From positions 1 to 26,493 of the IMG/VR virus record IMGVR_UViG_3300028595_000057: a stretch of DNA of 26,493 nt; one strand, written 5' to 3'. Source of the DNA: a virus. Both the position numbers and the translations under genes were made by a program. Below the pieces are notes generated by a model. The model saw nothing but the letters and a program-made list of their open reading frames with translations. It was not told where the DNA came from and ran no database searches. This document shows, piece by piece, positions 3,138-21,562 of this stretch (position 1 is the stretch's first letter; every line of letters starts with the position of its first letter).

Positions 3138-5768
3138 TTATCCTATCCAACATTCGCGTAACTTATCAACGATTCTAGGATAAAATCGAGCAGTTCCTAA
3201 CTCATTAGGATGAACACCATCAGGGGCAAACTGAGCAAGAGTTAAAGGGTTTAAACCACCTATAGTATATAAATCAATATACGGAATACTATAATATTCG
3301 CAATTTTCTATAATGGCGGCTCTATATTCGCTCATGAAAACCCCAGAACCATTCGCGCCATTTCGATTACTTTGTAACGGTGTCATAAATACAATTATCG
3401 GCGCGTTTGGTCTAGCAACTAAATCCTCAATAATCGCTTTTATTGCTCCGTGAAATGTCGATAGATCGCTATCGTTTAATGTTCCAATAGGCGTCGTATA
3501 CAACCAATCATTTACCCCAGCAAAGATAGTCCATATATCTGCGTCTGCATACCCCGGATTTCCATTTAACCCCGCAACTCGCTCAACAACACTTAAATTA
3601 GTTAAGTAGGAATTATTGATCGCCATGGTTGATGACGATAGTCCGCAATTCGTAGCGGTTAAACCTAAAGCCGATTCAATTGGTGTAATATATCGACCTT
3701 GTTCTGTAATACTATCACCAACAACATTCCAAGACAATCCTTCCAACATATAAACTAATGGTTTAATTTTATTAACATCTATACTAACTTGATCGTTTAT
3801 AGGTAGCCCATAGGTTACATATTGCATCATTGGCGTTGATACCGTTTCAGGGGTGGTAGCTCCCATTATTTTTCGAGTCTTCCAATTAACTATCGATGTC
3901 GCTTCAGTCAGCATATCTATCTCTGCAAAATTGGTCCATGTAATAAGATCGGCACTAATATCTATTTTGATAAAATCGTATTCCCAGTAAATATGCACAT
4001 AGGTATTCAAGTCTATTGCTGGGGTAATTGATATATCGACTATGCGAATCGCACTTCCTAAATCAGCTAAACGAACACTCCAAGGAGAACCTATAGCAAT
4101 AGCCGTAAATGCATCATATGCGTCCCCACCAATGATAATCCAATCATCCGCTCGTATATGCTTAAAACAAATCGATACTATACCTTCTTTAAAAAATAAT
4201 GGGTAATGACTTGTTGCCCATCCGGAAGGCTTGTATAGTTCTACTACTTGACTAGAGTCAATGCTGAATGTCGCTTCGCTCGCATCGCAATCCGACACGA
4301 GTAACGATTGACCCTTATTCTCCAACTGTACGATATCAGATTCTATCTGCACTACGTCCGATTCTATCTGCACTACGTCCGATTCTATCTGCACTACGTC
4401 CGATTCTATTTCGGTTATTCGGTTTTCATGTGTGCGTAACTTATAAATATCCGCATTTAAATATCTACAGCCGAATATGCCTTTTATAGGATTGAAATTT
4501 GCAATTTGAACGACCCCTCCATCGACCCCCGCAGTGTACCCAGCGCCTTTAATATATATACGTATAGCTTCAGCGCCAGCAGGTATTTCGGTCGGATCTA
4601 AATAGGTACTAAATGCTGCGGGGACGTCTTCCGATACTGGAATATAATTAGACTCATATATCTTGGTTAGGCTAGTATTGATAACACTATATATCTCGAC
4701 GTTAAAACTTTTATTAGCGGTAGATGCTAAAAAGTTAAACCCTAAAAATAAGCCTTGACTTAGACACTTTTGTATATCGGCATTATTTATAAAAAACTCT
4801 AGTAATGTTCCGGAGGGATAGTTTATATGCAGATCTAAATTTATAGCTCGCGTCGCAAACTCGAAATGAGCAGTGTCTTCGACCGTCATAATATTTCCAA
4901 ATTGTGCGGCATAAAATCCAGTCGTAGGCCCGTCTCCAGAATCATCACTAATTATAGTTAATACGTCTTCGTCATATGTTGGATCGTCATATATAAAGTC
5001 CGATGCTAAGGATGCCCCAACATTAAACCCTTGTTTCAGCTCATCATCATTTTTTGCGTATACAATACTATTATCAGATATTTCGGCGGCTTGATACGTT
5101 CCACCATCAGTCCAACTAACACCATTCCAATAGTACCAATGTCCATCTGCGGAAACGATGTATATATTAGTGTCGCCGGACGGGTAGGCGGCTTCTAATG
5201 CGCTTAAAGTTGCATATACCCCCGCCGGAGATGCGTCTCCTATATTGGCTATTGCTGTCTGAACAACCGATAAATCATTTTCGATCGTGCCCAATCGAGC
5301 GTTTTCAGTTGTATACATTTCATCATTAACTGCGCTATACCTCAAATCCGCACGAGATAAAATAAAATCCGCACCATCAAAGTCGACATCATAGGTATTA
5401 CCTATAATTAATTCTCTACCAGATAATGGCGTTTTAACTCCAGAATTATTAATTATTTGTAATGCGTAGGTTGTGTTCTCGTACGTTATTGATACGGCAG
5501 AGGTATTGGTGTTAGAAACTGTTAGCTTAAATTTTAAACCAGCAACTAAATCGAATTCAAGCTCCGATTCTATTTCTAAATCATTTGTTCCGGTTGCTGT
5601 AATTTGAAACACTCCTATACTGCTATTAATACCTACATTAACGAGGTTATTTATTCGACTATCTAACTCTTGGACATCTACGTCTACAGAATCAAACCCA
5701 TCATTAATTTTATCATACTCATCTTTGATCTTATTCGAGCCGACCAAATTACAATATTTATTGCTCAT
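3138..5768 (-). CDS. Tail fibre / receptor-binding protein with C-terminal SGNH hydrolase domain
   Basis: An 876-residue fibre-like protein. The N-terminal 200 residues are beta-rich. Residues about 180-250 hold the common fibre linker (YPSGDTNIYIVSADGHWYYW), then a beta-rich jelly-roll-like region, then a coiled coil (about 452-483) of near-identical heptads. The last 203 residues (from 674) are an SGNH/GDSL esterase: Ser686 in VVGDSITEQG, Asn753 in FAGVND, and Asp850/His853 in PDGVHP. Such domains usually de-esterify cell-surface polysaccharide or teichoic acid, so this protein probably both binds and trims the host receptor. It follows Dit and Tal, the usual place for the receptor-binding protein. 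AGGAGG precedes the ATG, and the frame overlaps the previous gene by 11 bases. Confidence 0.85.
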   Translation of the reverse strand: MSNKYCNLVGSNKIKDEYDKINDGFDSVDVDVQELDSRINNLVNVGINSSIGVFQITATGTNDLEIESELEFDLVAGLKFKLTVSNTNTSAVSITYENTTYALQIINNSGVKTPLSGRELIIGNTYDVDFDGADFILSRADLRYSAVNDEMYTTENARLGTIENDLSVVQTAIANIGDASPAGVYATLSALEAAYPSGDTNIYIVSADGHWYYWNGVSWTDGGTYQAAEISDNSIVYAKNDDELKQGFNVGASLASDFIYDDPTYDEDVLTIISDDSGDGPTTGFYAAQFGNIMTVEDTAHFEFATRAINLDLHINYPSGTLLEFFINNADIQKCLSQGLFLGFNFLASTANKSFNVEIYSVINTSLTKIYESNYIPVSEDVPAAFSTYLDPTEIPAGAEAIRIYIKGAGYTAGVDGGVVQIANFNPIKGIFGCRYLNADIYKLRTHENRITEIESDVVQIESDVVQIESDVVQIESDIVQLENKGQSLLVSDCDASEATFSIDSSQVVELYKPSGWATSHYPLFFKEGIVSICFKHIRADDWIIIGGDAYDAFTAIAIGSPWSVRLADLGSAIRIVDISITPAIDLNTYVHIYWEYDFIKIDISADLITWTNFAEIDMLTEATSIVNWKTRKIMGATTPETVSTPMMQYVTYGLPINDQVSIDVNKIKPLVYMLEGLSWNVVGDSITEQGRYITPIESALGLTATNCGLSSSTMAINNSYLTNLSVVERVAGLNGNPGYADADIWTIFAGVNDWLYTTPIGTLNDSDLSTFHGAIKAIIEDLVARPNAPIIVFMTPLQSNRNGANGSGVFMSEYRAAIIENCEYYSIPYIDLYTIGGLNPLTLAQFAPDGVHPNELGTARFYPRIVDKLRECWIG
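4339..4401 (-). repeat. Three perfect 21-bp direct repeats encoding coiled-coil heptads
   Basis: Three identical 21-bp units (4339-4359, 4360-4380, 4381-4401) lie head to tail, with decayed copies on both sides. Each encodes one heptad of the pattern ESDVVQI. Because the unit equals one heptad, gain or loss of copies keeps frame and changes the length of the fibre's coiled-coil stalk. Confidence 0.9.
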
Positions 5769-8622: not shown

Positions 8623-11600
8623 TTACCCCCTACTTTCATTTCTTTGTAACAACTGTAATTGTCTCGCTATTCGTTTAACATCCGCATCTTCTCTAACCAC
8701 AAGACTTGAAATGTTGAAATTATTGTTTACGCCACTTCCATTTTGACTTGTTGTCCGAGGCGTTTGTGATGGTTCGCTAGGTATTGTTCGAGGTAAGATC
8801 GGTCTGTAGGCAGATAAGCCTAGAAGATCTTTATTCGCATTGAAGTCAGACATATCCAAGACTGGTGTAATTACAGGACGTAGATTAATGTCATCGTTGA
8901 TGATGGATAGGATATTGTTGATGGCTTGTGTTATGCCCTTCTTCATTAATTCCGCGGTATCATCAATCGCCTTTACGAGTTGCCCTGACATATTTTGGAT
9001 ACCTGCAATTAAACCTTTAATTGTGTACTCGCCAATAGCCATAAACTCTTTTGACGGGGACTCAACTCCAAGTGCGTCTTTAGCGGTCTGTAAAATTTCT
9101 TCAGCCATCTTACCAGTTTCTTCTACGGCGTATATTGATTCGTCTTTCATACCAGTTACATACCCGCCAATAACATTGGATGCTAGTCCAGACCAATCAG
9201 GCGCATTGATCTTTTTAATCATATTATCACACATTAATTCCGTTTCAAACTCTGCTGCGCCTCGCATATTACCTATTTCACTCGCCCAATCACGTTTAAG
9301 TTGCTTCATGGCAGATGTAGTATCATCAACGACTGTCATCATCTGACCCGACCAAACTTTAACGTATTCGTTAAGCTCCACTGAAGCAGCTTTCGTTAAC
9401 TCTTGGATCTTTGTAACTGTCTCCGTACGCATACCTTCTAATTCCTCGGTAGCTTGTGTCTTAGCTAATGCATGTTTACTTCTCCATAGAGATGTATACT
9501 TAGTAAGTTCTTTATCTGATAGTTGTGTTAGGGCATCGATTTCTTGTCCTGATTTAGGCCCTAGTTTACGAAGTTCTTGAATTAGGTCTTCACCAACACC
9601 TCTAGCCGCTAACTTATCAATATCAACTTGCCAATTCTTAAATGCTTTAACCTGACCCTGTAAGTTATTGAGTAACTGGGTACCTTTGATCTTGTCTTCC
9701 TCTTTCTCTGGAAGTTTAATCTCATCAAACAACCCATAAGCAGAATATAACGTATCAGTTCTTGACGTTACAGCATTGTTGTATTCGTCCGTCACAGACT
9801 TAATATCTTGCTTTAACTTATCATGAATAGATTTAGTTTTATCGTAATATTCTTCCTCGAGCGCAATACGTCGATCGTTTGCTTCTTGTTGCAGCTTATC
9901 CATATCCTGAATATACTCATTATTAGCGTCTCGTATCTCTTGCTCAACTCTAAATATCTCACGATCTGCTTTCTTACGCATGTCTGAGTCTTTCTTAACT
10001 GAGTCTCGAATCTTTTTATGTGCGGCTAATTCCTCGGTTAACGCTAATTCATTGTAATATTTTTTCTCATCAATTAAATCAATCGATTTATCATAAGAAT
10101 CCTGCTCGATCTCATTTCGTACTCGATATACATCTTTATCAATTTGCTTACGTTCTTCTGAGCCTTCTTCATATATTTTTTGTAAGTCTTGATATTCTTT
10201 TAGCTCTTCTTCTAAGCTTAATTGTTTATAATATTTACGATTATTTATTGATTCGATCGCCTGATTATACTCATCTTTATAACTTTTCTCTTTCTCACCT
10301 TCATCTCTTTGCCTAATGGCTTTCTCAACACGATAAACCTCTCGAGCAGTCTTCTTACGATACTCTGCATATTCAGAGAATGTCTTGTTTAGGAATTGCC
10401 ATTCTTTCAATTCTTCGTCCAACGAAAGCTTATCGAAATACTTACGTTCTTCAATTGAGTCTACGGCCGCATCGAAGGCATCTTTAACCGACTTAGCGGT
10501 TTCTTTTGTAGCCGCAGCAGTTACTTTCTTACTAGAATTGGTAATTGCCTCTACGACTTCAGGAGTTCCTTGCTCAATTCCTAATTTCTGCCCACGCATC
10601 AAATATAAACCGATCTTTCTAAATATTTCGGATGGAGAGTGGGTATCAAACACTTCTTCTGCCGCGTCAATTACTTTTAAACCCATTTTACTTACTGCTC
10701 TGACTACGGGATTTGAATTTTCTGAAATCCCATTCTCTAGGCCAGCAATAACGTTCTTTCCGATATTTTCAACCTCAGCATATACTTTGTCTGGGATTTT
10801 CTTAAGTTCTTCTAATAACTTATTACCCCAACCAAGCGCTATTCTTGCGATTTCTTTTAAGACCAAGTCACTACTTAACGTAAAAGCATTCATAATCGCA
10901 ACGTTGAGTCCCACTATTGCGCGTTGGAGCTCTTCGCTATTCTCACGAATTGATTTCTCTACCTCGTTTATGAAGGTTATTGTAAATTCATATGCTGCAT
11001 CTACAACCTCGTCCATTGTTTTTGCCATACCGTTTAGCATGTTAACGATCATCATATTTCCAATTATTGTAAGCTCCTCGATATTATCATTCAATCCTCG
11101 CATAAAATCTAGTAGTATTTGATATCCATACTCATTTATAGTTGGTGAGTACTTAGCAAAAGATTTAAGAAGTTCGTTTGTGATTAAAAATGTTATTTCG
11201 CCTATTTTAGGTCCTAGCGACGCAAGCGCATCTAATAGTTGATCAGTAAGGTCTACCGCCCACTTGACCATTTTTGGAGTTACTGATATTAGCCCATCCC
11301 ACAGTTTGTTTAAGGAATCGTTAAATACTTGAATGAACATTGGAATAATAGACATGACGCTTGTAAAACTGACAACTATAGCTGGTCCACTAGCAGCGAT
11401 TAAAGTAAATAATGCCACCATCGCCGTGACTAATAATGCGGTTCCGGCAGCCATAGCCCCCATCCCAATTGCAGCGACTCCTACTGCTACTCCTAATAAG
11501 GCTATTGCGCCTGCGATTCCAAGAATAACTGGTAATAAAGGTCCTAAGAAATATGCGGCGACACCTAAAGTTGTTAGGACGCCGACTAATGCTCCTAATC

Positions 11601-14600
11601 CTATTATTGCTCCGCCTAAAGATATAGACCCAATCATCTTTAAGGCTGGGGCCATAGCAAGTAGCGCTAGCGCAACACCAATTAATACGCCCGTACCAAC
11701 GGTGCCTGCTTGTAATGAATATACCGCGGCTACTAATATAGCTAACGATGCCGCCATTACAGTTAAACTACTCTTAATTTGTTCCCAGGATATAGTTGAT
11801 AGCATCGTAAGACTATCGGCTAATATCAATAGCGAACCGACTGCCCCGATTAATGTACCTACATTGGTAATTGCGGTAGCAGGCATTAAAAGTAACGCGG
11901 CATTTAATATAGCTAGCGAGCCACCTAAAGCAGTAAGACTACGTTTGATTTGATCCCAACTTAGTTTTGATAACGAGGTTAGAACATCAGACACCGTTAC
12001 TAATGACTTAGATAAGATCTTCAACGCCATACTTCCTAAAAATGCTTTCTTTGAAGCACTGTTTATTAAATTGAAGAAAGATATGATAGACAGGATACCG
12101 CCCATTGCAACTAACCCTTTTTTGATATTTAATATCGACATTTTACCAAGCTTCTCTACAACGCCCGACAATATCGTTAACGCAGTAGCAACCGCTATTA
12201 AATCAAGAATGTTTAAAGCCCCCATCTTGATAGGCCTTAAAGACTCAAATATAACAATGCCTCCTAGTAATATACCAATACTTAATAATCCTTGCTTCAA
12301 TTTATTAATATCCATCTTACCGAATGTTTCTACGGTTGTTGCAAATCGGTTTAAAGTTGCGGCTAATATAAACAATTTAGCCATATCAAATAATCGTATT
12401 TTAACACCTTTGGCTGCTAGGGAGAATAAACTCAACTCAATCATTATTGCGCCTATAGTGCCTAACCCTTTAATTATTTGTTTAACGCTTAATATGCCAA
12501 TTGTAGACATTGCGTCAGCTAACATTCCGATTGCTTTACTTAATATAACCATACTTAACGCGCTAGCTAAGAACGATACGGCATTTTTTGACATTAGGGC
12601 AGACGTGGCAACTAATAATGTTAATAATCCGGCGACGCCGATTAACCCTTTAACTATACCATTGAACGGTATCTTTGCTATTTTAGTTAATGCTGAGGCT
12701 AATATCAATATCGCGGCGGATATAGCGATCATAGTTATGATTCCTTTTGTAATCCCCACCATTCCAGCAATTGACAGTTTATTTAACGCTATCATAGCGG
12801 CGAATAATTCGGCAATCAAAGTACCTATTGCAGATAGAGCAAGTAAAGTTTTCTCACTATCTACCTGCGCAATTAGTAAGAATGATAATGCTAACAAGCC
12901 AATTGCGGCGGCAATCTTTATTAATGCTCGGGCTTTTAACTCGTTCTGATAAGCTATTAAGCTACCTTTAATCCCATCTAATACCCCACTAACTTGTTTT
13001 TGTAGTCCAGCGAAGTCTTTAAACATGTTTGTAATACCGGTTGTAAAGACCTCAATGATGCCACTAAGCCCTCCTGTAGTTTTAGACAGTTTAGACGCAA
13101 ACGTAACCAAAGTTAAACCGAACGCTGTTACGATTCCGCTATTTAGTATTGAGAATACCTCTGCGACGTTTAATACAGATAAGAACTCTCGAATAGCGTT
13201 AACCATCTTCATGGTTGCTCCGTATACTACAACTCCTGCGTATTGAAATATAACAAAGAGTGCGACGACGGCTTGTATCATTTTGTATACCCCGGCCTTA
13301 ACAAGTTCCGCTTTATCATTAAATACTTCAAAACTTTGAGCAATGTTATCTATAATTTGAGCTCCATCCTCCAACCTAGAGTCAATAAATGATTGTAATA
13401 GCGCTTGTATGGTCACGATTACAATTTTCATTAATGTTCCGATTGGTTTGAGTGCTTCTGCCCATTTGTATAGGGATGCGGTTATGTTTTGTACTGTGAA
13501 TACGCCACGATCTAAGTCGAAGAATAACTGACCGATAGATACTAATAGGTTTAAGGTGGTTTCTCCTAAGGGTGTTAAGTTTTCAACTAGAAACTTTACC
13601 CCTTTAGCGGCAACCACAACGGCTTTACCCAACATTCGTACTACTGAGAACAACCCCTTAAATATAGTCTTTATCTTGTCTGCTAAATCGGCTCCTATTT
13701 TGAGGCCTGCTGTGAAGTCTCTAAATCTATTTGATGCGGTTACTAAATCTCCACCAGTTAGAGGTTTGAACACCTCAGCAAACGCCTCTTCTATTGGTTT
13801 TAAGACATCCGCGATAAGTATTAGGACGTTTGAGATTCCTTCTAATACGGCTTGTCGTCCACCTTGTTCGTCCCAGAATTTAAATAGCTCAGTTCTAGCC
13901 TGTGCAGATGCAGATATAACCTCACCAAAACCTTCACTAATAGAGGTCCATAATGCGGTGGATTTATCTTTACCACCTAAGATTGCCTCCCAAGTTTGAG
14001 CCCATCCAGATCCCATAGTTTCTTTCATAACGCCTAATAGTTTGGTAAAGGTCGTAACGTTTGTTGCTGCGGCAAGTAATGATTTATCCACAGCCATCTT
14101 TTTCATTGTTTCGATGAAGACTTCAGTTGTTAACCATCCGTCTTTTAATGAATTTCTGAATGGCACCGTTTCATCTCTAAATATACCCATTTCATTAGCC
14201 GTTTTCTCTAACGCAACCCTTAATTTCTCACCAGCTAGCCCTGCAATTTCTAATGACTTCCAGTCGATTAGTTGGAAATATCCTCCCGGCCTTAATGCTT
14301 GTGAGATTTGATAGGTCGCTCCAGCCATTCTTGTAGCATCCACACCAAAACCCGCAGCCACGTTACTTATACCTTTTATAGCAGTTACTGAGTCTTCTAG
14401 CCCAACTCCAGCCGCAGTAAACTTACCGATATTATCGGTCATTTGCGCAAAGTTGTAGATCGTTTTATCTGCATACGTATTCAATTCGTCTAATGCAGCG
14501 TTTACCTGATCTAGCGTGGTGCCTTTGCTTTCGGTATTAGTCAGTATTGTTTGGATAGAATTCATCTTCAACTCATACTCACTTAGGCCGGTTAATATTG

Positions 14601-14913
14601 GATCTACCGTTAAGGCCGATGTAATACGCTCGCCAAGTCTCATAGCAGAGTTGGTTAGATTCTCTATTACCGTAAATCCTACAACTCCTAAAGCGTTAAA
14701 TTTTGATGTCGCCGATCCTATAGCATGTATTACACTATCGAGGGAAAACCGACCTGCTGATTTTTCAAACTGATTGAATCCTTTTGCTGCATTCTGTAAA
14801 TTTAGACTGCTTTTTAATCGGTCTAGAGATTTCGTACTCGTACTTATATTACGTTCAAATTGCTGATTGTCAAATCGCATCTGAACAATTCGTTCATCAA
14901 TAGATCGAGTCAT
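8623..14913 (-). CDS. Tail tape measure protein
   Basis: A 2096-residue protein that sets tail length and leaves with the DNA. By the usual ~0.15 nm per residue the tail would be near 300 nm. The N-terminus (RIVQMRFDNQQFERN, then TP901-type core with WKSLEIAGLAGEKLR) is followed by hydrophobic repeats: eight copies of a 56-64-residue unit starting near residues 681, 745, 805, 864, 922, 981, 1038 and 1094. After a helical region come two SPS motifs (HSPSEIF near 1421, ESPSKEF near 1947) and three charged coiled-coil repeats near 1485, 1553 and 1611. No lysozyme or peptidase motif is seen. The frame reaches an ATG at 14934, but that has no ribosome site. The ATG at 14913 follows GGAGG and overlaps the previous stop as ATGA. 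Confidence 0.93.
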   Translation of the reverse strand: MTRSIDERIVQMRFDNQQFERNISTSTKSLDRLKSSLNLQNAAKGFNQFEKSAGRFSLDSVIHAIGSATSKFNALGVVGFTVIENLTNSAMRLGERITSALTVDPILTGLSEYELKMNSIQTILTNTESKGTTLDQVNAALDELNTYADKTIYNFAQMTDNIGKFTAAGVGLEDSVTAIKGISNVAAGFGVDATRMAGATYQISQALRPGGYFQLIDWKSLEIAGLAGEKLRVALEKTANEMGIFRDETVPFRNSLKDGWLTTEVFIETMKKMAVDKSLLAAATNVTTFTKLLGVMKETMGSGWAQTWEAILGGKDKSTALWTSISEGFGEVISASAQARTELFKFWDEQGGRQAVLEGISNVLILIADVLKPIEEAFAEVFKPLTGGDLVTASNRFRDFTAGLKIGADLADKIKTIFKGLFSVVRMLGKAVVVAAKGVKFLVENLTPLGETTLNLLVSIGQLFFDLDRGVFTVQNITASLYKWAEALKPIGTLMKIVIVTIQALLQSFIDSRLEDGAQIIDNIAQSFEVFNDKAELVKAGVYKMIQAVVALFVIFQYAGVVVYGATMKMVNAIREFLSVLNVAEVFSILNSGIVTAFGLTLVTFASKLSKTTGGLSGIIEVFTTGITNMFKDFAGLQKQVSGVLDGIKGSLIAYQNELKARALIKIAAAIGLLALSFLLIAQVDSEKTLLALSAIGTLIAELFAAMIALNKLSIAGMVGITKGIITMIAISAAILILASALTKIAKIPFNGIVKGLIGVAGLLTLLVATSALMSKNAVSFLASALSMVILSKAIGMLADAMSTIGILSVKQIIKGLGTIGAIMIELSLFSLAAKGVKIRLFDMAKLFILAATLNRFATTVETFGKMDINKLKQGLLSIGILLGGIVIFESLRPIKMGALNILDLIAVATALTILSGVVEKLGKMSILNIKKGLVAMGGILSIISFFNLINSASKKAFLGSMALKILSKSLVTVSDVLTSLSKLSWDQIKRSLTALGGSLAILNAALLLMPATAITNVGTLIGAVGSLLILADSLTMLSTISWEQIKSSLTVMAASLAILVAAVYSLQAGTVGTGVLIGVALALLAMAPALKMIGSISLGGAIIGLGALVGVLTTLGVAAYFLGPLLPVILGIAGAIALLGVAVGVAAIGMGAMAAGTALLVTAMVALFTLIAASGPAIVVSFTSVMSIIPMFIQVFNDSLNKLWDGLISVTPKMVKWAVDLTDQLLDALASLGPKIGEITFLITNELLKSFAKYSPTINEYGYQILLDFMRGLNDNIEELTIIGNMMIVNMLNGMAKTMDEVVDAAYEFTITFINEVEKSIRENSEELQRAIVGLNVAIMNAFTLSSDLVLKEIARIALGWGNKLLEELKKIPDKVYAEVENIGKNVIAGLENGISENSNPVVRAVSKMGLKVIDAAEEVFDTHSPSEIFRKIGLYLMRGQKLGIEQGTPEVVEAITNSSKKVTAAATKETAKSVKDAFDAAVDSIEERKYFDKLSLDEELKEWQFLNKTFSEYAEYRKKTAREVYRVEKAIRQRDEGEKEKSYKDEYNQAIESINNRKYYKQLSLEEELKEYQDLQKIYEEGSEERKQIDKDVYRVRNEIEQDSYDKSIDLIDEKKYYNELALTEELAAHKKIRDSVKKDSDMRKKADREIFRVEQEIRDANNEYIQDMDKLQQEANDRRIALEEEYYDKTKSIHDKLKQDIKSVTDEYNNAVTSRTDTLYSAYGLFDEIKLPEKEEDKIKGTQLLNNLQGQVKAFKNWQVDIDKLAARGVGEDLIQELRKLGPKSGQEIDALTQLSDKELTKYTSLWRSKHALAKTQATEELEGMRTETVTKIQELTKAASVELNEYVKVWSGQMMTVVDDTTSAMKQLKRDWASEIGNMRGAAEFETELMCDNMIKKINAPDWSGLASNVIGGYVTGMKDESIYAVEETGKMAEEILQTAKDALGVESPSKEFMAIGEYTIKGLIAGIQNMSGQLVKAIDDTAELMKKGITQAINNILSIINDDINLRPVITPVLDMSDFNANKDLLGLSAYRPILPRTIPSEPSQTPRTTSQNGSGVNNNFNISSLVVREDADVKRIARQLQLLQRNESRG

Positions 14914-15296
14914 ATACTCATTACCTCCCTCCATAGTTCAATACTTAGCTTATCAAATATGGGTCGTAGTGTTGGATTGATAAAATCAATACCTTCTACA
15001 TAGCCACCACTTCTAGTCGCATGCCCATACTGAATTAATATGGCGATTGGAGTTTTACCTTCTTTGTTCGTATTGTACCACTCAAGTTTAACTCCACCGC
15101 GGTCTCTTATAATCTCGTAATACCATGATTCCGAGGTTTTACCTGTATCTTTCGGTGTAGTGGCTCTTAAAGCAGCGATTCCTAATTCGCCATAGCGTTT
15201 AAATAAATGTAAATACTTGCGATCTATCTCCGACGCGTTCGTAAAGAACGTATCGGTCTTTTTAAATTTACCACGATGTACGAAGCTTATAGCCAT
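14910..15296 (-). CDS. HK97 gp10-like head-tail/tail completion protein
   Basis: A 128-residue protein with the HK97 gp10 family signature: TPKDTGKTSESWYYEI, then IAILIQYGHATRSGGYVEG and INPTLRPIFDKLSIELW. Family members close or complete the head-tail interface. In this phage type the gene lies next to the tape measure rather than next to the capsid gene, so a tail-completion role is equally possible. Its TGA overlaps the tape-measure ATG by the ATGA arrangement, indicating coupled translation. AAGGGG precedes the start. Confidence 0.72.
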   Translation of the reverse strand: MAISFVHRGKFKKTDTFFTNASEIDRKYLHLFKRYGELGIAALRATTPKDTGKTSESWYYEIIRDRGGVKLEWYNTNKEGKTPIAILIQYGHATRSGGYVEGIDFINPTLRPIFDKLSIELWREVMSI

Positions 15297-15300
15297 ATTA

Positions 15301-15840
15301 TCACCCCTTCGTGTTATACTGTGCTCTGCGTTGACTATTTAAAGATCTATTTCTAGCCGCGATTTCTTTTTTGGACATCTTTTTCTTAGGCGCATTCTTT
15401 TCATTACATACGCTAATCAACATCAACAATCTATTTAAATGCCATTTTTGACATTCGAAGGGTATGGTATGAGCAACCATCCAGTAATATATTACTTCCG
15501 AAGTTATAATTTCATTTGATTGTTTATTCTTGCTATTTATGGTTGTTGCTGTCATCGGACTTTTGATATATTCTTGAATTTCGTCGATTAATTCCGATGG
15601 TAAAGCGGTACTTATATATGTATAATCGACATTATTATTTATTACCATACAATAAATGTAATAGAGTGACTCCTCTAATGTCTTTTCGGTTTTAGATAGG
15701 AATGGTTTATTCCATTTTGACTCCCATTTTGAAATTGCGATTAGGGAATGCTCTAGTTGTAATGTGTGCTCTTTGAATTTTGTAAATAGGTTAAGTTTAT
15801 CATTATAAATTTCTATTTCAGGTATTGTAATTGTTAACAT
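15301..15840 (-). CDS. Candidate second tail-assembly protein upstream of the tape measure
   Basis: A 179-residue helical protein with an aromatic/Trp-rich N-terminal half (AISKWESKWNKPFL, YYIYCMVINN), MTATTINSKNKQ in the middle, IITSEVIYYWMVAHTIPF and KWHLNRLLMLISVCN, and a basic KKKMSKKEIAARNRSLNSQR tail. I recognise this as a recurrent phage protein always placed between the gpG-like chaperone and the tape measure; a role in guiding tape-measure folding or tail assembly is inferred from that position. No catalytic motif is visible. The ATG has AAGGAGG upstream. An in-frame TAG stands two codons before the start, so it is not a frameshift extension of the previous gene. Confidence 0.65.
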   Translation of the reverse strand: MLTITIPEIEIYNDKLNLFTKFKEHTLQLEHSLIAISKWESKWNKPFLSKTEKTLEESLYYIYCMVINNNVDYTYISTALPSELIDEIQEYIKSPMTATTINSKNKQSNEIITSEVIYYWMVAHTIPFECQKWHLNRLLMLISVCNEKNAPKKKMSKKEIAARNRSLNSQRRAQYNTKG

Positions 15841-15857: not shown

Positions 15858-16220
15858 TTATTTTATTTGGGGTACGATTCCATTAATGAATGCTGCGGCT
15901 TTCTCATCGCTTGTGGTCAGCTCCATGAATAAGTTACTATATGCTTCTGTTTGAATGAATTTATTCAATACCTCCTCATTCTTAACAAAACGCTTACCGT
16001 CCAAAGATTTTTCACCATAAGATAAGTTAATTATTTTCTTGAATGTTTCCATGATTCTTTTCACATCGTTCTCTTGGACTAACTTTTGCATTAGCTTTGA
16101 TAGTCCTCCGTCGTTACTTAATTCCAATTCAGTTAATTCCATTTTTGTTAGATTGAAGTAGAAATCCTCTTCCCTCTCGTTTCCATCATAATCGGTGTAT
16201 TTGATTGTTTTTTTAATCAT
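15858..16220 (-). CDS. Candidate tail assembly chaperone (gpG-like position)
   Basis: A 120-residue acidic helical protein beginning with the strand-rich KYTDYDGNEREEDFYFNLTK and containing NLSYGEKSLDGKRFVKNEE and TSDEKAAAFINGIVPQIK. The same pattern recurs in siphoviruses of Bacillota in the slot between major tail protein and tape measure, where tail assembly chaperones lie. It should bind the nascent tape measure and not enter the finished virion. AAAGGAG precedes the ATG. Lambda-like phages make a longer form by ribosomal slippage here; no slippery heptamer is visible at the 3' end in the required phase. Confidence 0.68.
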   Translation of the reverse strand: MIKKTIKYTDYDGNEREEDFYFNLTKMELTELELSNDGGLSKLMQKLVQENDVKRIMETFKKIINLSYGEKSLDGKRFVKNEEVLNKFIQTEAYSNLFMELTTSDEKAAAFINGIVPQIK

Positions 16221-16255: not shown

Positions 16256-16606
16256 TTATTTGTTATTTGTTCCTAATACTTGTCTGTGTGCTCGGTCTTG
16301 AACTCTTTTATCGAGCCATAATAAAGCATCCTCGATATGGGTTAATGCGATTGCGTTTTCTCGGCATTTATACGCTTGTGTTTGAAATGTCTGAAGTCGG
16401 TGTCGAACAATTTCTAATAGGTCAACATCAAGACATCCAAAAGTTGAATCCTCTTCATTTCTAGGACCTTTTTGGAAGTTTATTTCCAATTGTTCGTGTG
16501 AATTTTTAGCCGCGATTAAATATTCATGGCATGAATCTTCTTTTACGTGTACATCGTTTAATACTTCATGCTTTTGTATCCTGTCTAATTTTGTGTATGT
16601 TTTCAT
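16256..16606 (-). CDS. Acb2/Tad1-family protein, candidate anti-CBASS/anti-Thoeris signal sponge
   Basis: A 116-residue protein. Residues 44-113 match the widespread phage family now grouped as Acb2/Tad1 hairpin proteins: NFQKGPRNEEDSTFGCLD, DLLEIVRHRLQTFQ, CRENAIALTHIEDALLWLDK, RVQDRAHRQVLGT. The C-terminal pair of helices with C-R-E-N-A and the E-x-A-L-x-W-L-x-x-R stretch is the diagnostic part. Studied members bind immune messengers, gcADPR (Tad1, anti-Thoeris) or cyclic di/trinucleotides (Acb2, anti-CBASS), without cleaving them. The first 43 residues are more variable. Which ligand this one binds cannot be told, and some family members may have other roles. It sits within the late operon between an unknown gene and the tail chaperone, with AAAGGAG before the ATG. 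Confidence 0.72.
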   Translation of the reverse strand: MKTYTKLDRIQKHEVLNDVHVKEDSCHEYLIAAKNSHEQLEINFQKGPRNEEDSTFGCLDVDLLEIVRHRLQTFQTQAYKCRENAIALTHIEDALLWLDKRVQDRAHRQVLGTNNK

Positions 16607-16637
16607 TTTTTCGCTCCTTTAATCTACTTTGTCGCAT

Positions 16638-16937
16638 TTAATAGTCTCCATTATTCATACTTTCTAATCTAGGTGTTTCGCCTTCGGTGCTAATATACAC
16701 TCCTGGAATATACGTTAATGCCTCTGCTACGGAATACGAACCATCTGGATTTCTTTGTTGGGTCGTTACCTGCATAACACATCCATCCGGACAATTACAT
16801 ACTTTTGTAGATTTCATAAAGCCCTCGTTGTCACTGGACGCCTTAGCTAATAATACCCATACGTCATCTCCGTAAATTTTTAAATCTTTAATGTTTTGTC
16901 TGTCTGGCTTATCGTCTGAAATATCAAGTTGTCTCAT
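16638..16937 (-). CDS. Small Cys-containing phage protein, unknown function
   Basis: A 99-residue protein I can match only to recurrent unknown phage proteins. The core reads DVWVLLAKASSDNEGFMKST, then VCNCPDGCVMQVTTQQRN and AEALTYIPGVYI. The C-N-C-P-D-G-C cluster could bind a metal ion or form a disulphide turn. The frame is open to an ATG at 16970, but AAGGAG lies nine bases before the ATG at 16937, which is the chosen start and leaves 13 bases after the previous stop. It precedes the Acb2/Tad1 gene by 31 bases in the same accessory cassette. Confidence 0.62.
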   Translation of the reverse strand: MRQLDISDDKPDRQNIKDLKIYGDDVWVLLAKASSDNEGFMKSTKVCNCPDGCVMQVTTQQRNPDGSYSVAEALTYIPGVYISTEGETPRLESMNNGDY

Positions 16938-16950
16938 CTCTTTCTCTCCT

Positions 16951-17229
16951 TTACTTTTTTCTATGACCATTTTTACTCACTATTTCCTCAGCAGACTTAA
17001 ATGAATTATTTTGTTCTGAGTTCTGAGGCTGCGTGAGGTTTTGCATTTGTTGCTGGAAGAATATCCTATCTTGTGCTTGTATTGGCATGTTTAGAATAGT
17101 TCTTATAGCATCGATGGTGCAATTTATAGCTACGCGTTTATAATCTTGATTATTCATGTCGATTAACATATTACAAACACGTTGTTTCTCTTCTTCTAAT
17201 TGTTGAAAATGCGCATTGTTGTAATTCAT
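16951..17229 (-). CDS. Small Gln/Asn-rich hypothetical protein
   Basis: A 92-residue protein, helical in the first 65 residues (NAHFQQLEEEKQRVCNMLI) and rich in Gln and Asn after that (FFQQQMQNLTQPQNSEQNN), ending in a basic NGHRKK. I do not recognise a family. The ATG at 17229 follows AAAGGAG. A terminator-like hairpin lies just upstream (17246-17273), so its expression needs read-through or an unseen promoter. Confidence 0.6.
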   Translation of the reverse strand: MNYNNAHFQQLEEEKQRVCNMLIDMNNQDYKRVAINCTIDAIRTILNMPIQAQDRIFFQQQMQNLTQPQNSEQNNSFKSAEEIVSKNGHRKK

Positions 17230-17245
17230 GATAAATACTCCTTTA

Positions 17246-17273
17246 TATTAAAAAGGGGCTTTTACACCCCTTT
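17246..17273 (-). terminator. Rho-independent terminator-like hairpin
   Basis: On the minus strand AAAGGGG (17273-17267) and CCCCTTT (17258-17252) form a perfect 7-bp stem with an 8-base loop, followed by TTTTTAATA. It lies 12 bases after the stop at 17285 and would end, or attenuate, transcription coming from the capsid and major tail genes. Confidence 0.7.
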
Positions 17274-17284
17274 AGTTTTCATTA

Positions 17285-17791
17285 CTAGCAGTTAGGAGAT
17301 AAGTTTCTATTTCCCATCATTGATTGTACTACATTTACTACTTCGTTGATTGTGATTCCGCCGTTACTTCCATTTTGATTTCCGCAACCTACTACTTCAT
17401 ATCGAGCAGATGGTTTAGGACAACAGAATGAGTTTACTTCGGCTTGAAGTCTATTGGTCGTTTGCCCAGCAAGAATTTTGTCATCACGAAGATCAGCAAT
17501 CTTTTGAGATAATAGATCTCTTTCTAAATTATCGATCTTGTTATCTAACGCGTTAAATCTAGCTGCATTATTCATTTCTAATGAACTGAATCGAGCGTTA
17601 TTGTTAACTAGAGAATTATTGAAACTATTGTTCAAATTCATGCTATTCTCTACTTGTCTCATTGTGTTGCTTTGGTTAAGATTCGCAAATCCAGCGTTCA
17701 ATCTTCCGCATAATTCAGATTCGCTTCTAACAATATCGCTATTGTTTCTTAATACGTCTCTTTGGATTTGTTGGTTTTGGTCGAATGCGAT
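17285..17791 (-). pseudogene. C-terminal part of the frameshifted accessory-cassette gene
   Basis: This frame is open from 17791 to the stop at 17285. It encodes an Asn-rich coiled protein (SMNLNNSFNNSLVNNNARFS; LDNKIDNLERDLLSQKIADL) with a Cys pair (FCCPKPSARYEVVGCG). It lies in the -1 frame relative to the upstream piece (17749-17991). The region before the first in-frame TTG (17701) still reads as protein (IAFDQNQQIQRDVLRNNSDI), so that TTG is unlikely to be a real start and it lacks a good ribosome site. Joining the frames at the AAA codon (17793-17791) gives a continuous ...LLDK-IAFDQ... protein. One missing A in the A-run, from error or mutation, would explain it. A programmed shift is possible, but no standard slippery site is present. 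Confidence 0.6.
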
Positions 17792-17991
17792 TTATCAAGT
17801 AATTGACCTTGTCTTCCGTATCCACCATAATATCCGTCGCTGATTGTTGGTACAATGTTTGAAGTTGTTGTTAACATTTTTTCATCTCCTCCTTGATGGT
17901 TATCATATACCTCATCCTTGTGGTACATTTCTTCAATTTTAGCGTGTGTTTCTTCTGATACTTCGTAATGTTTCTTTTCTTCAGGCGTCAT
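17749..17991 (-). pseudogene. N-terminal part of the same frameshifted gene, with two nested starts
   Basis: The frame opens at an ATG at 17991 with AAAGGAGG upstream and encodes a charged leader (KKHYEVSEETHAKIEEMYHK). A second in-frame ATG at 17877 follows a perfect AGGAGGAG site with 8 bases spacing and begins MLTTTSNIVPTISDGYYGGY, which I recognise as the usual N-terminus of a recurrent phage protein of unknown function. After QGQLLDK the frame becomes nonsense-like (SHSTKTNKSKETY) and stops, while the -1 frame continues sensibly. The intact product would have about 197 residues from the inner start or about 235 from the outer start. Confidence 0.6.
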
Positions 17992-18037: not shown

Positions 18038-18068
18038 GACCCTCCACGGTCCCTAAACGCAGAGGGTC
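18038..18068 (-). other. Stable 11-bp hairpin between the major tail gene and the accessory cassette
   Basis: On the minus strand GACCCTCTGCG (18068-18058) pairs over 11 positions, two of them G-U, with CGTGGAGGGTC (18048-18038) around a 9-base loop. No T tract follows on either strand, so it is not a standard terminator; protection of the abundant upstream mRNA from 3' decay or a processing site are possible. The remaining bases of the 17992-18202 gap are AT-rich, and I see nothing else firm in them. Confidence 0.6.
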
Positions 18069-18202: not shown

Positions 18203-19165
18203 CTACGCTGCTGCTGTAGTAAAGTCTTTAACTTGGTTGGTCAACGATTGTGCGTAAATATCCGCAACGTTCGCTATAACAACTAAGTATGTTGTACTGT
18301 TTGCAAGGTCCACAGTCGGTGTGAATGTAAGGATCTTCTCGGTGGAATCCAATGAGAATGCTCCCGCCACAGGTACGCCAGCCGCAGTTGTTACTGTGAT
18401 GTTGTAATCAACGATTGCATTGTTGAATGTCATCGTAATAGCGCTATCGATAGCAACGTCTGTTTCAGCATCTGCAGGGTCAATAGTAGATAATGCAAGA
18501 GCTGATGGAGCTGCGCCGTCAAATAACGTCTTGATTTCATTCGGTAACGGTAATCTAGGATCTACGCCCTCAGTTCCGTATAAGATATCTTCTAAAGTTG
18601 CTAGCGTTGTAGCATCACATTTAGTAGAATCAATTACAACAGAAGCTGTTGGTTTTTGATCTGTTACTGATACTGGGGTGGTTGACACTTCCCATGAGAA
18701 GTTGATTGCTTCTGGTGAATCATTGATTGTTTGGTACGCTTTCTCTGATGGAGCAGCTAATGCCCCATAGATCAAATGTAACTTATAACCGTACTCTTCA
18801 CCATCAACATCGTTACCAACTTCAGTTCTGTAACACATACCGAATTGTTGTCTTGATTGCTGCCCAATAGCAACGCCAGTAGCTAAATCTACGCCACCAT
18901 CACAAGCTTCAAATTCTGCTGGATACGTGAACGCTTCGATTGTTGCGGCGAATTCCTCTGTAGATAACAAGTTAAGATACTTAATGTTATCCGCATAGAT
19001 TGGAGTTGCTTCTGCACCAGTAGGTGATTCTGAAACGTTAGTTAAACCATTCCATGCCACACCTAAAGGATATGTACCACTTGAAGATTGTGGATACAAC
19101 ACTCCATTTTTAACGCCAGTTTCATATAGTCTTTCACCGGTAGCATCCCACGAAAGTCTAGACAT
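18203..19165 (-). CDS. Major tail protein with C-terminal Ig-like (Big_5 type) domain
   Basis: A 320-residue tail tube subunit. Residues 1-210 match the major tail protein pattern of Bacillota siphoviruses: SRLSWDATGERLYETGVKNG, YLNLLSTEEFAATIEAFTYP, RQQFGMCYRTEVGND and INFSWEVSTTPVSV. Residues about 218-320 form an added Ig-like domain of the SbsA/Big_5 type (IDPADAETDVAIDSAITMTF, KILTFTPTVDLANSTTYLVV, VKDFTTA). Such domains decorate the outside of the tail tube and may bind host surface sugars weakly. The position after the tail-completion genes and before the chaperones is standard. AAAGGAGG precedes the ATG at 19165. Confidence 0.88.
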   Translation of the reverse strand: MSRLSWDATGERLYETGVKNGVLYPQSSSGTYPLGVAWNGLTNVSESPTGAEATPIYADNIKYLNLLSTEEFAATIEAFTYPAEFEACDGGVDLATGVAIGQQSRQQFGMCYRTEVGNDVDGEEYGYKLHLIYGALAAPSEKAYQTINDSPEAINFSWEVSTTPVSVTDQKPTASVVIDSTKCDATTLATLEDILYGTEGVDPRLPLPNEIKTLFDGAAPSALALSTIDPADAETDVAIDSAITMTFNNAIVDYNITVTTAAGVPVAGAFSLDSTEKILTFTPTVDLANSTTYLVVIANVADIYAQSLTNQVKDFTTAAA

Positions 19166-19801: not shown

Positions 19802-21562
19802 TTAACCTGCTGCTTGTAACTTCTCAACAGTCATAGCTGATTTAGGCTTAGTCAAACATCCTGACATTCTACCTTCCATCAAGTATTTGTATTGGTTGAA
19901 GTCAATGTCGAAATCGTCGAATGTTGAGATTTTACCACCTTTGTCAGCACCAACTGTGTAATCTTTAAGATTAACGATGATTCCGATTAAGTCGTAAGTA
20001 TCATCTCCGTCTTCACGAGTTTGATTCTCCATAACTTCTACTTCAACAATCTTAGACACTCTTAAAGCAGCAGCTACTTCAGCTTCTGTCTTATAAAGTC
20101 TGTGCCCTGTAGTATCTTTCAATAACAACAAGTCTGTTAAAGTATCAGCAGTTGTGTAGAAAGTAGGTCTTCCACTTCCTTTGTAGTTCTTTCTAGCTCT
20201 TAAGATAGCATCGATCATATCGTTGGTATCTGCGTCAGAAGCTAATTGGATTTTGTGGTTGTAGAAGTCAGCATCTTTATAGATAGGACGAATGTTTGAT
20301 TCGTTGATTTTATTGTCATGGTCAACAGCTCTTCCATCTCCAACTAAGATTGCTCTTGCAATTTCCTCATCCAACATCATTCTCATTTCCATCTTTAACC
20401 AAGCAACTACCTCCATATCAGTGATATCGATGATATCATCTCTATCTAACTTTTGTTTCTTATAGATAGTAGTAGGTGTTGTTACACGCTTACTTAACGC
20501 GAACACTTCGTCAGTTTTCTCGTTACCAGTAGTGTAACCTTTTGCTCTTGCTTCATCCGCTGTAATATCCGCAGACATACTTTTGATTCTTGAGAATGGT
20601 GATTTGTGAGTTCCGCTAATTACGCCAGACACCCACTCAGTAACTCTTTTCTCAAAATCAGGAGTGTTTCTAATCTTTTGGGCATCTGGGAATAAATAGT
20701 CGATGTTATCGATACCGTAAGTTCCCGCATGCTCTAAGAAGGCTTTCTTCAAAGAACCACTCTCTCTAGCTGATTTAAAGATATTAACAACATCTTCGTG
20801 AGTTAGTTCTGTTTTAGAGTGTTTTAATTCTTTTTCGTCTTTCTTATCAAATACGTTTTTCTTCATTCCTTCTCCTCCTTCATCATGGTTTAGATCTTTT
20901 TCAGAATCATCAGCATCGCCAGTTACACCTTCTGAGTCATCAGATTGTTTCATATCGCCATCTTTGCCGGCAACCGCATCAACGGCGTGAGACATGATAG
21001 CATATACCGCAGTCTTTTGTTTCTCATCTAATGTATTGAATACGTCACCGATAGTTTCTCCGGATCCGCCTTCTTGATGCTCGATTTCGCCACCTTCTTG
21101 AATATCAGATTCTCCGTGGTAGATAACTGCCTCAGATTCATCCACATAATCAGATCCATCAGCGTGTTCTATTGCGATGTTATCAATATGTGCTCCTGGA
21201 TTAGCTCCAGCCATAACTAAACTAGCTTCTCTGATAACCCCGTGTAATACATCACTAACGACTTGTCTCAATTGATTAGCGTGGATTGATAACGCCTCGA
21301 TATCTTTATGCTTAACTAATGCTTTAGCATTTTGTGCACTTGGAGTATCATTAAATGTGGCGTAACCATACACACCATCATCCCTATGTTCTAAAATAAC
21401 ATGTCCTAGAACATTAGATGGGTCTTTCTTAAAATGCTGCCATACCAAAGGAATCTTTGCGCCGTCTTGATGCTTGAATGCGTTAGGCTTAATAGTTCGT
21501 CCATCAGAGCATCGAATGTTGTACTTAGTGACATAGCCACTAAAATCAAACTTCTTTGACAT
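19802..21562 (-). CDS. Fused prohead protease and HK97-type major capsid protein
   Basis: A 586-residue polyprotein. Residues 1-135 are a HK97-family (S78) prohead protease: His43 in LVWQHFKKDP and Ser92 in EALSIHANQL are the expected catalytic residues, followed by GVIREASLVMAGANPGA. Residues about 140-232 are acidic and low-complexity, a delta-domain scaffold that should be cut away. Residues from 233 form the HK97-fold capsid protein (EEIARAILVGDGRA, RPTFYTTADTLTDLLLLKD, DFNQYKYLMEGRMSG). An in-frame ATG at 20866 (Met233) has a perfect internal ribosome site and could make capsid protein without protease. The gene overlaps the portal by 17 bases and starts after GGAGGAGG. Confidence 0.92.
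   Translation of the reverse strand: MSKKFDFSGYVTKYNIRCSDGRTIKPNAFKHQDGAKIPLVWQHFKKDPSNVLGHVILEHRDDGVYGYATFNDTPSAQNAKALVKHKDIEALSIHANQLRQVVSDVLHGVIREASLVMAGANPGAHIDNIAIEHADGSDYVDESEAVIYHGESDIQEGGEIEHQEGGSGETIGDVFNTLDEKQKTAVYAIMSHAVDAVAGKDGDMKQSDDSEGVTGDADDSEKDLNHDEGGEGMKKNVFDKKDEKELKHSKTELTHEDVVNIFKSARESGSLKKAFLEHAGTYGIDNIDYLFPDAQKIRNTPDFEKRVTEWVSGVISGTHKSPFSRIKSMSADITADEARAKGYTTGNEKTDEVFALSKRVTTPTTIYKKQKLDRDDIIDITDMEVVAWLKMEMRMMLDEEIARAILVGDGRAVDHDNKINESNIRPIYKDADFYNHKIQLASDADTNDMIDAILRARKNYKGSGRPTFYTTADTLTDLLLLKDTTGHRLYKTEAEVAAALRVSKIVEVEVMENQTREDGDDTYDLIGIIVNLKDYTVGADKGGKISTFDDFDIDFNQYKYLMEGRMSGCLTKPKSAMTVEKLQAAG
20864..20880 (-). promoter_or_regulatory. Internal ribosome binding site and start within the capsid fusion
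   Basis: On the minus strand AAGGAGG (20880-20874) stands 7 bases before an in-frame ATG (20866-20864) that encodes Met233. It falls exactly between the acidic linker (DEGGEG) and the capsid part (MKKNVFDKK). Initiation here would give a free 354-residue capsid protein. Confidence 0.7.

Follow-up and report, generated by a model that had tools for sequence, protein, structure and literature searches.

A gene in the tail module of a viral genome record encodes a 116-aa protein which, judged by its sequence and its modelled fold, is a somewhat divergent Tad1 of the CbTad1 branch and belongs to an already known family. The gene lies within the 26,493-nt stretch of DNA that was analysed as a whole (subsequently designated the window), a 26.5-kb virus record whose minus-strand genes are laid out as a late region. 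We consider it probable that the protein is a late-made sponge, i.e. facultative cargo of the virion-assembly operon, the production of which is timed with that of the Thoeris-triggering capsid protein. The analysis provides its family membership, predicted fold, position and same-strand late context, as well as the recurrence of sponges in such positions. The window Tad1 adds one protein to the known family; of greater interest are the late slots in which sponges recur.

The Tad1 ORF runs from 16606 to 16256 on the minus strand, starts with ATG and is preceded by a strong ribosome-binding site, AAAGGAG (16614..16620, minus strand), located 7 nt upstream of the start codon. An earlier reading made from the sequence alone (the sequence-only reading) had marked an ORF at 16256-16606, without giving a strand, and had placed its product in the Acb2/Tad1 family on account of the motifs FQKGP, DLLEIVRHRL, CRENAIALTHIEDALLWL, RVQDR and LGT. 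The ORF is real, all of these motifs are present, and phmmer, Foldseek and a phylogenetic tree narrow the assignment to Tad1 of the CbTad1 branch. When PDB sequences were searched with phmmer, CbTad1 was the top match (E=1.2e-26, residues 6-116 of the window Tad1) and the second Tad1 matched was 8kbb (CmTad1; 1.2e-14). PHROG 2428 was matched with E=1.4e-27, and this value together with that for CbTad1 far exceeds chance resemblance. Global alignment with CbTad1 yielded 51% identity. The Pfam profile Acb2_Tad1_hairpin (PF24729) scored 22.8 bits, which is below its curated cut-off of 27 bits, and aligned at profile positions 30-54 only. Other CbTad1-like proteins likewise score low (27.2 and 33.8), indicating that PF24729 fits this branch poorly; membership in Tad1 rests on full-length homology and fold rather than on this profile. 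PADLOC returned no match, as expected for counter-defence, and Tad1 was not matched in plasmids. In IMG/VR, a single-sequence query returned nothing and an alignment query was required to find relatives.

An AlphaFold model of the window Tad1 (monomer, 49 sequences; pLDDT 86) predicts strands at residues 4-6, 17-22, 28-33 and 39-44, followed by two long helices (60-75 and 82-107), that is, the four-strand antiparallel N-terminal sheet plus helical hairpin that characterizes Tad1. Proteins of the Tad1 family form hexamers (trimers of dimers) and bind gcADPR and cyclic oligonucleotides without cleavage. The paired-helix hairpin anticipated by the sequence-only reading is thus predicted, and the best structural match is CbTad1: in Foldseek searches of the PDB it ranked first (E=7e-11, TM 0.83), with CmTad1 next, and these two were the only matches with E below 0.001. 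Acb2 shares the helical hairpin domain, as reflected by the PF24729 match, but consists of a short N-terminal helix and the hairpin without a beta-sheet, whereas an N-terminal sheet is predicted for the window Tad1. The ligand pocket, conservation of which the earlier reading had proposed to check, appears to be retained in its core. F74 and N84 align with F82 and N92 of CbTad1, which we take to be the essential pocket residues of that protein, and H27, Y29, Q45, G47, R70, R101 and R105 are kept as well.

The sequence-only reading had further regarded the N-terminal 43 residues and the ending QVLGT as setting the protein apart from the studied branch. Both reasons proved wrong upon alignment to CbTad1 and relatives, and an unusual N-terminus or ending was rejected: the N-terminus aligns with CbTad1 from residue 6 onwards and is modelled as the Tad1 sheet, and VLGT is the usual ending in the CbTad1 branch, with NVLGT in CbTad1 itself and RQVLGT in three further loci (L027, L035, L052). 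The G-V-E-G-T ending, from which QVLGT was thought to deviate, belongs to the Bacillus SBSphiJ7 branch and not to the CbTad1 branch. Departures that this reading did not mention lie elsewhere. A five-residue gap after D24 shortens the loop preceding H27 and removes a Gly-x-Gly motif, of which both glycines are present in 48/48 aligned relatives, and near-invariant residues are changed by G77Q, N99D and E103Q. Given these changes, the ligand of the window Tad1 may differ or the protein may be impaired. The Tad1 of SBSphiJ7, a tested protein, also lacks the Gly-x-Gly loop, which identifies the loop as a feature of the clostridial branch rather than as a defining trait of Tad1. Since the loss is shared with SBSphiJ7 Tad1, it does not exclude function of the window protein, but the ligand range still should not be assumed.

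Among proteins of known structure or function, CbTad1 from a Clostridium botulinum prophage (PDB 7uav, 7uaw, 8smd, 8kbe, 8kbf) is closest: the two proteins are about 50% identical across their full length, agree in the sheet-plus-hairpin fold predicted here, and have in common the pocket Phe and Asn and the VLGTN.K ending. In comparison, the window Tad1 is five residues shorter before H27, lacks the CbTad1 loop glycines and is encoded in a tail module, between the genes for the major tail protein and the chaperone. CmTad1 (PDB 8kbb-8kbd), a binder of cyclic trinucleotides, has the same fold (Foldseek E about 3e-7) but is more distant in sequence than CbTad1 (30% identity). SBSphiJ7 Tad1, the founding anti-Thoeris protein from a Bacillus phage, belongs to the same family with 34-47% identity. 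PhiKZ gp184, taken as a jumbo-phage Tad1, weakly shares the hairpin (E=0.98); it is a virion component of 230 aa, whereas the window Tad1 comprises 116 aa. Another jumbo phage encodes a 338-aa protein (Burkholderia phage FLC9 gp131; L013, 2392-3408), in which a C-terminal Tad1 is preceded by about 200 extra N-terminal residues.

The minus-strand genes of the window encode, in this order, terminase, portal, a protease-capsid fusion, head-tail connectors, the major tail protein, small ORFs, a chaperone, the tape measure protein, and tail and lysis proteins. All features described in the following are on the minus strand. Upstream of Tad1 are the fused prohead protease/major capsid protein (19802..21562; PF04586 and PF05065), which belongs to the kind of protein by which Thoeris is triggered, and the major tail protein (MTP; 18203..19165; phrog_2645, E=3e-106), the gene of which is followed by a hairpin (18038..18068; -18.3 kcal/mol). 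Four cargo ORFs come next: an 80-aa ORF (17749..17991), a 138-aa ORF with a TTG start (17285..17701; frame open to 17791), a 92-aa ORF (16951..17229) with a weak, sub-cut-off match to DUF3896, and a 110-aa ORF (16638..16970), for which no family was found. The frame of the 138-aa ORF overlaps the 80-aa ORF, and the pair resembles a single protein interrupted by a frameshift, be it natural, programmed or due to sequencing. Tad1 itself is separated by 31 bp from the ORF preceding it and by 35 bp from the downstream gene for the tail assembly chaperone (TACa; 15858..16220; PF23803, E=7e-42). Further downstream are a second conserved gene, here named TACb (15301..15840; phrog_4338), the order of which is kept in relatives, a tail completion/Neck1-like protein (14910..15296; phrog_5, E=4e-10) and the tape measure protein (TMP; 8623..14934; phrog_4372). 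The location in a tail gene cluster claimed before is borne out in that Tad1 sits between the MTP and TACa genes. Gene order, spacing and strand make it likely that Tad1 is co-transcribed with the tail genes. An own promoter is not claimed, since a consensus promoter scan found sites no more frequent than in shuffled sequence. An intrinsic-terminator-like hairpin (AAAGGGGTGTAAAAGCCCCTTTTT; 17252..17273; -11.8 kcal/mol) lies upstream of the group formed by Tad1 and the ORFs at 16951 and 16638, and expression of this group may consequently be below that of the tail protein. The same hairpin may also reduce expression of the downstream tail genes.

In order to view this arrangement in relatives, about 80 contigs were fetched with the window's MTP, and more with TACb. 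Their common gene order is MTP, TACa, TACb, neck and TMP, and the intergenic gaps are normally short (median 89 bp for MTP-TACa and 22 bp for TACa-TACb), as compared to about 2 kb with five ORFs between MTP and TACa in the window. Distinct modules, collected irrespective of whether they contain a sponge, number 139. Cargo is present in the MTP-TACa-TACb gaps of 33 of them, and in 5 of these 33 it includes a protein of a sponge family: one Tad1 (L138/L141), two Tad2 (L100, L131) and two Acb2-type hairpin proteins (L110, L348). The L100 protein matches solved Tad2 at 3e-17. The L110 and L348 proteins carry the Acb2/Tad1 domain according to Pfam; as the L110 sequence matched no solved Acb2, both are named Acb2-type only. 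Further Tad1 genes were found in the MTP-TACa gap of L099 and between TACb and neck in L055. When 49 long contigs of the lineage were scanned with Tad1, Tad2 and hairpin models, three genes were detected, all of them in the tail module; this test is small and L055 had been fetched via a Tad1 query, leaving one Tad1 and one Tad2 as independent cases, both in the tail slot. The four tail-slot Tad1s are scattered on the tree, where at least two changes are required by well-supported branches and four are obtained by parsimony. Since they do not group, Tad1 appears to have arrived repeatedly in this slot.

Association of sponges with structural genes extends to other phage lineages and is more general than the late-region placement which the sequence-only reading had correctly noted for this one gene. 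A survey of Tad1 yielded 143 loci forming 102 clusters at 90%. Recognised structural genes are present within 5 kb and on the same strand at both sides of Tad1 in 34/102 clusters and at one side in 20/102; in 28/102 clusters Tad1 is located between minor head/portal and scaffold/capsid genes. For 48/102 clusters no structural gene was detected nearby with the models used, and endolysin and holin neighbours recur among the remaining loci. Tad2 occupies the head slot (minor head-scaffold/capsid) in at least six loci (L414, L417, L436, L439, L444, L448), and L434 joins L100 and L131 as a locus with Tad2 in the tail slot, while Acb2-type relatives are mostly found elsewhere or have structural neighbours that the models used do not recognise. 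The structural-gene models were built from the Tad1 loci and the window, and counts near Tad2 and Acb2-type genes are therefore lower bounds. In cultured Bacillus phages, including the SBSphiJ7 group, Tad1 lies between SSB-like and RecA-like genes, unlike the window gene in its late operon, and the Lactococcus phage 1706 homologue lies in a replication-side region. Adjacency of these Tad1s to replication genes shows that late placement is not required for Tad1 function. No description of late-operon placement of sponges was found in the open-licence papers searched.

According to published work reviewed in PMC12043709, gcADPR and cyclic trinucleotides are both sequestered by Tad1, each at sites of its own. 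Triggering of S. aureus Thoeris requires the phage major head protein, which by itself suffices (PMC12578639). The window Tad1 would bind and sequester immune messengers of nucleotide type, with glycocyclic ADP-ribose from Thoeris as the most likely ligand and cyclic trinucleotides of CBASS as a possible further one, keeping the host suicide effector off. Judged from its position, it would be made alongside capsid and tail proteins by late co-transcription, and the antidote would be supplied together with the trigger. Such timing matches the trigger, as it is newly made major head protein that switches Thoeris on.

The position could also be incidental, Tad1 being a small accessory gene of ordinary function that happened to insert where the late operon tolerates additions, with no role for timing. 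Indeed, the MTP-TACa-TACb gaps also take clearly unlike cargo, namely Ig-like proteins, a second tail protein copy, DUF4406 and DUF6275, and the TACb-neck gap accepts endolysins. However, three sponge families in one gap and the sharing of the head slot by Tad1 and Tad2 look like more than a random draw among small phage genes, and we regard an incidental position as rather unlikely. More doubtful still is virion carriage, also considered in the sequence-only reading, in which the window Tad1 would be part of the particle, enter the cell along with the DNA and act ahead of all phage gene expression. In phiKZ, the virion protein gp184 has been shown to be injected (PMC10449902), and a 2026 review describes phiKZ Tad1 as injected (PMC13282480). 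In addition, homologues are annotated as 'structural protein' in Lactococcus phage 1706 (orf71) and as 'putative structural protein' in Bacillus phages CM1 and P59, and many Tad1 relatives adjoin scaffold and minor head genes. But gp184 matches the window Tad1 weakly, the orf71 annotation is not traceable to data, its record giving no basis, and the window Tad1 carries neither a packaging signal nor a structural fusion. Gene position alone is no proof of packaging, which moreover is not needed for a sponge.

It is very improbable, finally, that the protein has lost messenger binding and now functions in tail structure or assembly. The missing Gly-x-Gly loop, the changes at several near-invariant residues, a long branch on the tree and the adjoining tail genes would fit such a fate, but core pocket and hairpin residues are retained. 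In addition, most relatives of the tail module have no Tad1-type gene in the MTP-TACa gap, showing that Tad1 is not needed for tail assembly.

A late-made sponge timed with its trigger leads to a broader proposal, which we put forward tentatively. Virion-assembly operons of siphophages might contain two dedicated positions, a head slot flanked by minor head and scaffold/capsid genes and a tail slot delimited by MTP and TMP. Both would be loaded interchangeably with sponges of unrelated folds (Tad1, Tad2, Acb2-type). Output of the sponge would thereby be coupled to that of the structural proteins by which Thoeris and CBASS are triggered; alternatively, the sponge would travel within the particle. 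Sponges act by stoichiometry and hence the time of their production decides success; if phages repeatedly tie them to capsid and tail genes, this would fit the sensing of capsid protein by Thoeris. Should the slots be real, the question of timing becomes testable, they provide a map position for seeking new counter-defence genes, and DUF4406, DUF6275, crAss001_48, a recurrent 72-aa protein and the window ORFs at 16638-17991 become candidates for counter-defence.

Several of these small proteins recur in the MTP-TACa gap. DUF6275 and crAss001_48-related proteins, candidates for as yet unknown counter-defence, are found in L131, L134, L339, L341, L343 and L258, and in L131 they lie directly upstream of Tad2. 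A 99-116 aa protein is present in L241, L242, L243, L244, L246, L255, L260, L262, L285 and L296; at least one copy matches DUF4406 (PF14359, 22.9 bits), and it is possibly a nucleotide-acting enzyme. A protein of 72-79 aa recurs in L134, L138, L139, L140, L142 and L313, the scanned copies being without Pfam match, and immediately precedes Tad1 in L138/L141. The TACb-neck gap often holds endolysin-type enzymes (amidase, GH25, CHAP, glucosaminidase; L106, L123, L126, L159, L167). Elsewhere in the window, a tail fibre-like protein (3138-5768) carries a C-terminal GDSL esterase domain (PF13472), and a 320-aa ORF (1059-2021) has homologues in L094, L097, L115 and L265 that vary in place, occupying either the terminase-portal interval or one of the gaps MTP-TACa and TACa-TACb.
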